From: a bacterium
Lineage (GTDB): Bacteria > ARS69
DNA: 35,862 nt
Assembly: GCA_025774805.1 (NCBI GenBank)
Contig: JALGZR010000029.1
Coordinates: 1-35,862, forward strand
Direction: 5' to 3'
Positions within the stretch are counted from its first letter, which is position 1. Each line of letters starts with the position of its first letter. The translations under genes and the position numbers were made by a program. The notes under the pieces are model-generated. The model was not told the origin of the DNA, searched no databases, and saw only the letters and a list, made by a program, of their open reading frames with translations. Positions 1 through 2,241 of the stretch are shown in pieces.

Positions 1-251
1 AATCCGATTTGTTTCTACTAGTGCTTGATCCTAGTGGCCCCAATCTACGAATCACTCCATACACAAGTAGGCGCGCAAAAGATGCTGCAAGGCACTATCT
101 AGAAGTGGAGCGGAGTATTGTCACGGGCGATGTACGCCAAGCCGTTTTGGTTTCAGTGGAATCCGTTCGGGCATTAAAGACAGCTTATCCGAACTACTTC
201 CTAGACACAACTGCGTTCATCCAAGCTCTGGACAACGCGATCGCATTCTAG
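1..251 (+). CDS. C-terminal fragment of a probable RelA/SpoT-domain (small alarmone synthetase-like) protein
   Basis: The reading frame is open from the first bases of the window to TAG at 249-251, so the gene begins upstream; a TTG at 9 is only an internal codon or weak start. About 82 residues are visible. The tail contains VLVSVESVRALKTAYPNYF followed by LDTTAF, which resembles the C-terminal end of stand-alone RelA/SpoT-domain proteins (an LVSV...L..AYPNYF.DT..F pattern). That is recognition from memory and not proof, because the catalytic part lies outside the window. The stop overlaps, tail to tail, the true end of the neighbouring transposase remnant (stop at 248-250, minus strand). 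Base composition is lower in G+C than the rest of the window. If the call is right, the protein would make or modify (p)ppGpp-type alarmones. Confidence 0.45.
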   Translation, partial: SDLFLLVLDPSGPNLRITPYTSRRAKDAARHYLEVERSIVTGDVRQAVLVSVESVRALKTAYPNYFLDTTAFIQALDNAIAF

Positions 252-1113
252 GACGAGTTGGGCTTTCGTGGTTGTCGATACCGCAGTCTCTTCCCCTGGG
301 ATTGCCGGATGGCACGCGCAGTTCGATCACCGTCGTCCATCTTGCGAGTGTTGTACCGGAACTCGAATTCCGACACATAGCGATGCAGGTGCTTCTTTGA
401 GACCGAGTGAAAAGTGCCATAGACTCCCCTCTTATGTAGCGGTATGGCGGCAGCTCATCGGTCAGAACCCGCGATGAACACTCCGCGTTGGCGTAGATGA
501 AGCCCTTCAGATTGGCCGCGTTGACGCTCGGAACGTGAGCAGCCCGCACTTCGCCCCCTCGCTGGACCATAGCCACGACGGGGGCTTTGGATGTCCCGCG
601 GCCGCTTTTGACGTTCGCGTTCCGGGCTCGATTGGCGCGACGCGGCTTTCCTCCTACATAGGCTTCGTCTATCTCCAGCGTGCCCGAGAGGGGCTCGGGG
701 GCTTCATCAGCCATCGCCCAGCGAATCCGGTGCATGAGGAAGAGGGCAGACTTGTATGAGAGACCCGTCATGCGCTTGATCTGGAGGGCCGAGACACCCT
801 TTTTGGACGAGCAAGCGGCCCAGAACGCATAGCACCAATGCCTGAGTGGGATCTTGGAGTCTTCGAGAACGGTTCCAGTCCTCACTGTGTACTGCTTGCC
901 GCATCCACGGCAACGCCACCGACAGTCCTTCTCGCGCTCTTCTGAGCCCCGCCTCCGCATTTGGTAGACATCCGAGGACTCACAACGCGGACAGATAGGA
1001 GAGTCGCCCCAACGCTGGGTCTCAAAGAACTCCACAGCAGCATCCTCGTCGGCACAAGCCGCTGGGATGTCTCTGAGTACCTTGCTCTTGTCCCTCGCGT
1101 TTCCGTTAGCCAT
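248..1113 (-). pseudogene. IS1595-family (ISXO2-like) transposase remnant with a frameshifting internal deletion
   Basis: From ATG at 1113 the protein has an N-terminal zinc ribbon (C41-x2-C44 and C68-x2-C71), a helical region with KRMTGLSYKSALFLMHRIR, and the start of the ISXO2-like DDE core: the first catalytic Asp in GTLEIDEAYVGGK (D149) and the second in RVLTDELPPYRYI (D219). Right after that the frame is wrong. The next sequence read in another frame gives RGVYGTFHSVSKKHLHRYVS, then EFEFRYNTRKMDDGDRTARA, and stops at 248, which is the normal family C-terminus. The segment that should lie between (roughly 35-40 codons, including the HTN-x-E/FF-x-LLK region with the third catalytic residue) is missing, and the join near 435-445 is out of frame. 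The in-frame continuation to 217 is therefore spurious. The enzyme cannot be active. No terminal inverted repeat can be placed on the left, because the stop overlaps the neighbouring gene. Confidence 0.9.
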
Positions 1114-1242: not shown

Positions 1243-1345
1243 TGCGAGGGACGGGGCTCAAACCCGCACGGGCCGTGCGTTCTCTAGGCGAGAACGGCCC
1301 ACCGGATCCCAAATCCGATGCGTCTATCAGTTCCGCCACCCTCGC
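1243..1345 (-). tRNA. Unusual leucine-type (type II) tRNA with UGG (Pro) anticodon
   Basis: The minus strand folds as a complete cloverleaf of 103 nt plus CC. The acceptor stem is GCGAGGG/CCCTCGC with discriminator A73 (1243). The D arm is GCG-GAACTGATAGA-CGC. The anticodon stem TCGGA/TCCGG closes the loop TTTGGGA, placing anticodon TGG at 1311-1309. The T arm is GCGGG-TTTGAGC-CCCGT. Body features (TGGCGGAA..TGATAGACGC, A73, long variable arm) are those of tRNA-Leu, yet the anticodon reads proline codons. The variable region is 34 nt, with a ~7-bp stem GGGCCGT/ACGGCCC continued by TCTC/GAGA, against about 15 nt in normal tRNA-Leu. The usual G19-C56 tertiary pair is A19 (1327) and U56 (1260), a double change that keeps pairing. 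The flanking GGT extends the acceptor stem to 10 bp by pairing with ACC. The encoded 3' end is CC followed by T, so CCA would need completion. It could be a functional mistranslating tRNA, a mobile-element tRNA, or a decaying gene; the compensated changes favour function. Confidence 0.8.
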
Positions 1346-1441: not shown

Positions 1442-1894
1442 TCATGCCGATCTGCCGCCCGCGGCCAGATTCTCGAACCAAGTGATGGCTGAGTCTATCT
1501 CGGGCCCATGCTTCCAGAGCTTCTTATCCCCTGGAAGCTTCTCTACTGAGTAGATCCTCTCCGGATCGAAGTGGTGATCCTGCAATGCCTTGTTCATGGC
1601 TCGCCGAAGAGGTCCCGTTGCTCGTGCCTCAATCCCCAAATGCCTTGCCACTACTTGAGTTAGCACTCCGCCCTTCTCCTCTCGCAGTAGCTTCAAAGCC
1701 TTGGCGAATTGGGCGGGGTCCTTGAGCGGATTCGTTCCTTCAGCACGCGGAGGAGATTCTGTCTGTCGAGCGGGCCGCTGAGGTCTCCGAGAGTGGGGCC
1801 TTCGGGCCAAATCCAAAGCCGTGTCTAGTGCATCCGCATCCTCGCAGTAGACCTCTTGGCCCCGAACGATTACCTTAAACGGGTAGCGCCCCAT
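1442..1894 (-). CDS. Hypothetical protein, 150 aa
   Basis: ATG at 1894 is preceded on the minus strand by a good ribosome binding site (GGAGGT about 9 nt upstream). The N-terminal ~28 residues (PFKVIVRGQEVYCEDADALD, then TALDLA) look like a short beta-alpha unit. A basic, proline-rich linker (about 32-55) follows. The C-terminal half contains DPAQFAKALKLLREEKGG and a helix-turn-helix-like helical run (VVARHLGIEARATGPLRRAM), ending with an amphipathic stretch around WFENLA. I do not recognise the family. The helical part is compatible with a small DNA- or RNA-binding protein, but nothing shows this directly. It lies beside the odd tRNA and the transposase remnant, in the low-G+C part of the window. 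Confidence 0.6.
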   Translation of the reverse strand: MGRYPFKVIVRGQEVYCEDADALDTALDLARRPHSRRPQRPARQTESPPRAEGTNPLKDPAQFAKALKLLREEKGGVLTQVVARHLGIEARATGPLRRAMNKALQDHHFDPERIYSVEKLPGDKKLWKHGPEIDSAITWFENLAAGGRSA

Positions 1895-1993: not shown

Positions 1994-2167
1994 ATGATAG
2001 ATCCCGATCCGAAGAAGCCCGGCCCCGATCCGAACCGCCTCAATATCGACGAGTCGGAGGGATGGGAGAAGGCCGTCAATCGCGCCCTGCGGAAACGACG
2101 TCCTAAGGACGGTTGGCCGAAGCCAGATAAGAGGTCTAAGGAGGACGATCCCCAAAAAGACGGCTAG
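1994..2167 (+). CDS. Small highly charged hypothetical protein, 57 aa
   Basis: The start is taken at ATG 1994 because GGAG (1984-1987) lies at a good distance before it; an in-frame ATG at 1979 would give 62 residues but has no well-spaced site. The peptide is rich in Pro, Asp and Lys (MIDPDPKKPGPDPNRLN..., ending in KRSKEDDPQKDG), with one short amphipathic segment (EGWEKAVNRALRKRR). It is probably largely disordered. It has no recognised domain and no hydrophobic segment. It diverges from the 150-aa gene across a ~100-nt gap. Short ORFs of this kind may be chance, so confidence is modest. Confidence 0.35.
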   Translation: MIDPDPKKPGPDPNRLNIDESEGWEKAVNRALRKRRPKDGWPKPDKRSKEDDPQKDG

Positions 2168-2205: not shown

Positions 2206-2241
2206 AAGTTGGGTTTGCACAAGGTACATACTTCCTAACTT
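2206..2241. promoter_or_regulatory. Candidate operator/promoter for the Feo operon
   Basis: AAGTTGGG (2206-2213) and CCTAACTT (2234-2241) form an inverted repeat matching at 7 of 8 positions, separated by 20 nt, in the AT-rich island before the DtxR-family gene. The half-site AAGTTAGG resembles half-sites of DtxR/IdeR boxes (TTAGGTTAGSCTAACCTAA type). A TTGCAC (2215-2220) lies within it. Autoregulation by the downstream regulator is an inference. Confidence 0.35.

Follow-up and report, generated by a model that had tools for sequence, protein, structure and literature searches.

The window, a stretch of 35,862 bp that makes up the entire contig C137, comes from a draft genome of 5.1 Mb with only four relatives from its phylum in the collection. 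Near the left end of the window lies a tRNA gene of 103 nt (1243–1345, minus strand). The Rfam tRNA model RF00005 matched exactly this interval with 44.7 bits (gathering threshold 29) and, together with a structure parse and a fold of the variable arm, identified a class II tRNA with a leucine-type body and the anticodon UGG, which reads proline codons. The cloverleaf is intact, as had been described from the letters alone: the acceptor (7/7), D (3/3), anticodon (5/5, one U.G) and T (5/5, one G.U) stems are all paired. A73, A14, A15-U48 and the long variable arm are features of a tRNALeu, but the anticodon is not of the leucine type, which has A35. Instead, G35 and G36 of a tRNAPro are found in an anticodon loop reading UUUGGGA, and the combination of a leucine body with a proline anticodon put forward in the preliminary description is hereby confirmed. 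A tRNAPro body would have a short loop, C1-G72 and G15-C48, whereas the window tRNA has the long arm, G1-C72 and A15-U48; the tRNAPro genes of the host have C1-G72. The variable arm, described before as 34 nt with about 11 bp, does have this length and pairing, with an additional 4-nt bulge (z of -3.75 compared to shuffled sequences). Two further traits singled out in the preliminary description fared less well. The corner pair A19-U56 is real but no special clue, since phage tRNALeu genes have it and other transposon tRNAs differ. GGU and ACC can indeed pair to extend the acceptor stem to 10 bp, but judged from the flanks by eye, related tRNAs apparently do not share this pairing and it is, hence, probably due to chance.

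The closest full relatives of the window tRNA are tRNALeu(UAG) genes, found in the host itself as well as in other bacteria. The tRNALeu(UAG) of genome G002 matches it at 56 of 67 core positions and the host copy at 54 of 67, the difference in the anticodon being A35G. Descent from a duplicated host tRNALeu(UAG) locus was considered and found unsupported, as the flanks have no second copy in this genome. The host encodes five Leu and three Pro isoacceptors, a complete set that includes tRNAPro(UGG), and the window tRNA is therefore unnecessary for completing the code. ARAGORN did not detect the gene because of its long arm. The program overlooks long-armed tRNAs of this kind and calls others tRNA-Pro, leaving them hidden from standard tools.

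The tRNA gene is part of a transposon. Contig C4 ends with the same 44 bases with which the window begins, and this exact 44-bp overlap joins the two contigs and is the basis for the left part of the element. The joined sequence contains an element of the IS1595 family, 3,063 bp long, that is bounded by terminal inverted repeats of 13 nt and flanked by a perfect target duplication of 8 bp, AACTTTCT. According to the overlap, the repeats and the duplication, its right 2,236 bp occupy positions 1–2236 of the window and its left end lies at C4:37701, where it starts with GGGAAGTATGTAC; it ends with the inverted match GTACATACTTCCT, the core of the right repeat being AGGAAGTATGTAC when read inward (2224–2236, minus strand). 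The duplication is present on either flank, at 2237–2244 and at C4:37693-37700. A motif of the right-terminal-repeat kind also ends six further loci (L103, L264, L267, L268, L269 and L256). The transposase gene (217–1113, minus strand; tblastn) encodes the zinc-ribbon (PF12760, 1.3e-9) and DDE_Tnp_IS1595 (PF12762, 2e-17) domains of the family, but it is broken: homology extends from 1083 to 442 and from 439 to 269, with a frame break at which residues about 230–265 (~36) are missing. Consequently, the window copy cannot move itself. The preliminary description had the tRNA next to a dead IS; the IS is dead, but the tRNA lies inside the IS1595-type element, and a mobile-element origin is supported.

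Further genes were found in the element. A RelA/SpoT-domain protein of 356 aa (PF04607, 1.8e-15) starts on C4 and ends with its C-terminal part in the window (1–251, plus strand). It matches the PADLOC candidate defence protein PDC-S33 (6e-115), a model that also matches ordinary RelA/SpoT proteins. Just upstream of the tRNA lies an orphan ORF of 150 aa with no family match (1442–1894, minus strand), and a 57-aa ORF with the motif GWExAV..KxRPxxGWP, conserved in related elements, is located close to the right end (1994–2167, plus strand). No synthetase gene was found within the element. Its G+C content is 56% compared to 68% for the contig, and the element lies immediately upstream of a gene for a DtxR-type regulator (2293) and of a feoA/feoB-like operon. 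Similar 5' flanks around the island resemble promoter or operator sequences. The GTTAGG motifs that surround the island had been considered as marks of an integron cassette, a reading dropped after the terminal repeats and the 8-bp duplication were found. To the left of the transposon, contig C4 carries a MITE-like structure, an inverted repeat of about 27 bp (CTAGCCTCGATCCGTCAGAAAATCTCG) around 150–200 bp (L074:145-350).

tRNAs of this kind were searched for in two ways, starting either from the tRNA or from the transposase. With a strict pattern of Leu-type D arm and TTGG loop, no intact tRNA was recovered from 84,980 species genomes, and with looser patterns none of this kind from roughly 980 other whole genomes. 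Leu-type D arm and TTGG loop patterns did recover several intact tRNAs from viral contigs, and their neighbours were IS1595 transposases. Of eight distinct viral loci with a Leu body and UGG, five have IS1595 genes nearby, compared to one among 33 other loci with a Leu-type D arm (p = 4e-4). As this search preselected UGG, only the finds from the transposase side are unbiased. There, 48 viral IS1595 loci were collected by transposase profile with no condition on the anticodon. Besides those already known, scanning them revealed class II tRNAs designated Pro(UGG) at five loci, L264, L268, L269, L275 and L277, and Infernal added L278 (UGG) and L267 (AGG, likewise proline). In this anticodon-free scan class II tRNAs in or beside such elements had NGG anticodons only, a UGA tRNA (L340) being undelimited. 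Altogether, a class II tRNA with A73 and a proline anticodon is present at 12 IS1595 loci including the window (UGG in 11, AGG in one), the eleven others coming mostly from IMG/VR viral contigs with unassigned host. Terminal repeats with perfect 8-bp duplications surround the tRNA in seven of them (window, L264, L268, L269, L103/L270, L277, L108/L283) and terminal repeats alone in four (L256/L263, L257/L271, L275, L267); random anchors gave repeats plus duplication in 3 of 400 cases. IS1595 elements of named plasmids (Mesorhizobium, Methylobacterium, Roseomonas, Methylocystis, Sulfitobacter and Pseudosulfitobacter) contained no such tRNA, nor did twenty chromosomal IS1595 loci with 1.5-kb flanks.

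The searches also brought up other arrangements. An IS1595-related element (L143:140-4003; repeats 16/16, duplication AAAAAGTC) carries a Leu-type tRNA with the anticodon UGU (Thr), and an IS1595 element at L281:4420-6718 encloses a short-arm tRNA with the anticodon GGA. In bacterial genome G938, the UGA tRNA mentioned above (L340:2480-2567; Leu-like body, A73) lies beside an IS1595 transposase, around which convincing terminal repeats were not found. Thus, IS1595 elements can have other tRNAs as cargo too, perhaps including that of L340. Plasmid-borne IS1595 elements of Methylobacterium (L342) and Roseomonas (L344) have in common a hypothetical gene, a PIN/VapC gene and a small ORF as cargo, and L284 is arranged similarly. 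Matches to a Leu body with UGG in Clostridia were rejected, being 5' half-tRNA repeats rather than intact tRNAs: L054 and L055 (also L051–L053) hold many 5'-half copies of tRNALeu(UAG) with a common tail (GATTTGGGCAGCGTTACTACAGTGGA), interspersed with small genes in the vicinity of the true tRNALeu gene, which looks like serial insertion at a tRNA.

To what extent the transposon tRNAs are conserved was analyzed in an alignment of ten of them with the variable arm left out. At a mean identity of 68%, 99.1% of the pair cells hold standard pairs, both partners vary in 16 of 22 pairs, and the score for covariation is 0.713 compared to 0.231 after shuffling. A14, A15, A73 and the anticodon are among the invariant positions, the anticodon having been preselected for about half of the sequences. 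Atypical members are L268 with a non-standard D/T loop and L275 with C33. Several variable arms are unusually long (34, 46, 31, 29 and 24 nt). On the transposase tree, the 12 tRNA-bearing rows require 5 changes, compared to 10.4 when shuffled (0 of 500), and within the eight-member clade of the window (support 100/100) seven members have the tRNA. The tRNA, hence, follows the transposase phylogeny. The 57-aa GWP ORF is present in six elements of this clade, with blastp E-values of 1e-10 to 1e-16 between the window ORF and those of L264, L268 and L103, and also in L263 and L269.

These data bear on whether the gene is a decaying pseudo-tRNA, a functionless passenger of an old capture, as it would be if homologues were absent or had broken stems. 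The window tRNA has the lowest score among the 43 tRNAs of the genome, it is followed by CCU with no CCA encoded, and the adjacent transposase is broken. However, the tRNALeu(UAG) of the host is likewise encoded without CCA, the stems are all intact and the tertiary pair is compensated, and the relatives in the transposon loci are strongly paired and covarying with a fixed proline anticodon. We therefore regard decay as very improbable.

Apart from the tRNA and the small ORF, the cargo varies and is often defence-like, comprising SLFN_AlbA_2 (L103), RmrA (L264) and HARE-HTH-like proteins besides the PDC-S33 match of the window. RelA/SpoT, Schlafen/AlbA_2 and RmrA are tRNA-directed or translation-blocking enzyme types, and the tRNA might act outside translation as their decoy, sensor or antitoxin-like partner, a role to which the unusually long variable arms would also be suited. 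Yet, the cargo protein changes with every element while the kind of tRNA is constant, L268 and L277 carry the tRNA with little other cargo, and the conserved proline anticodon suggests decoding. Such a role is, hence, improbable.

Bacterial LeuRS recognizes A73, A15-U48, G18/G19, A20a and the D/T pairs and ignores the anticodon, and bacterial ProRS wants G72 and G15-C48 (PMC9976931). Because LeuRS reads A73 and the D/T corner, the sequence of the window tRNA makes it most likely that LeuRS would charge it and that CCA, perhaps CCN, would then be read as leucine. G19 is among the leucine determinants and the window tRNA has A19-U56, which keeps the D/T corner pair; the efficiency of charging is therefore uncertain. 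G49-U65 had been considered as a proline signature and was dropped, as it is present in other viral tRNAs too.

Codon use was compared between host and elements. CCA accounts for 4 of 367 proline codons in host genes and for 28 of 81 in the transposases of tRNA-bearing elements. Since the codon is rare in the host, damage from misreading would be limited. We also considered that CCA is recoded as leucine in the transposases themselves. This was not seen: the consensus is proline at 18 of 27 CCA codons and leucine at none, and leucine at these sites would thus harm the element's own protein. The same numbers fit a tRNA that is charged with proline and helps to translate the CCA-rich genes of the element in hosts where CCA is rare, in line with the ProRS determinants G35, G36 and A73 and with an anticodon that is always of the proline type, even in the AGG variant of L267. 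Nevertheless, we consider such compensation unlikely, as C72 in place of G72, A15-U48 in place of G15-C48 and the class II arm all disfavour bacterial ProRS (PMC9976931), and the host already has a tRNAPro(UGG).

To our knowledge, very few cases of dual-identity tRNAs are known in bacteria. Nearest in kind are tRNAProX and the allo-tRNAs, neither of which is transposon cargo. tRNAProX of Streptomyces and Kitasatospora is likewise a natural bacterial dual-identity tRNA with predicted misreading of a codon family, but combines a body of the proline type with A34-containing anticodons for Ala, Asn or Thr, and adjoins its own synthetase, ProRSx (PMC10365949, PMC11415595). In contrast, the window tRNA has a leucine body, a proline anticodon with U34, and resides on a transposon without a synthetase gene. 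Allo-tRNAs share the class II structure and an anticodon foreign to the body, but have an 8/4 or 9/3 acceptor branch and serine identity (PMC7609411), compared to 7/5 and A73 in the window tRNA. Those phage tRNAs that have a Leu-type D arm and a His, Gln or Asn anticodon are likewise located on mobile DNA and unite a 5' half of the Leu type with an anticodon for another amino acid. Their discriminator is often C73 or G73 or the long arm is lost, suggesting that they are re-tooled for a new amino acid, whereas the tRNAs with proline anticodon keep A73, G1 and the long arm. Pattern searches gave at least 120 matches to phage tRNAs in which a Leu-type D arm goes with an Asn, His, Gln or other anticodon (L111–L222, e.g. 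L119, L145 and L123; L262 from Caulobacter phage CcrColossus), often with an altered discriminator or a short variable loop. One Leu-type tRNA (L105:774-882) has a greatly extended anticodon arm. As to the transposon, the element resembles known IS1595-family elements with passenger genes in its zinc-ribbon and DDE_Tnp_IS1595 transposase, terminal repeats, 8-bp duplication and cargo, and differs in that the cargo includes a tRNA gene. In a literature search, with subscription papers mostly outside its reach, no transposon with a tRNA among its cargo came up.

Taken together, we favour, on the grounds of sequence comparison, the explanation that a lineage of the IS1595 family probably carries the tRNA as a conserved cargo gene, that the leucyl-tRNA synthetase of the cell would charge it, and that the charged tRNA would insert leucine at CCA, possibly at all CCN, proline codons. 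The transposon would thereby disseminate a missense tRNA along with genes of the defence type. Our guess as to the benefit for the element is, for instance, a conditional effect, linked to the defence cargo, that damages translation or confers tolerance. That the lineage maintains the leucine-charged, proline-reading tRNA as a working part, amounting to programmed mistranslation spread between bacteria and phages along with defence genes, is a conjecture to which we would give somewhat less than an even chance.

Whatever the function, a tRNA conserved as transposon cargo and a proline anticodon fixed on a leucine body need explaining, and the question arises what an element gains from misreading proline codons. 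If the proposal is correct, these loci would also provide natural Leu/Pro tRNAs, as a defined set, on which synthetase identity could be tested, and a transposon with a conserved dual-identity tRNA would make mistranslation a horizontally transferable trait.
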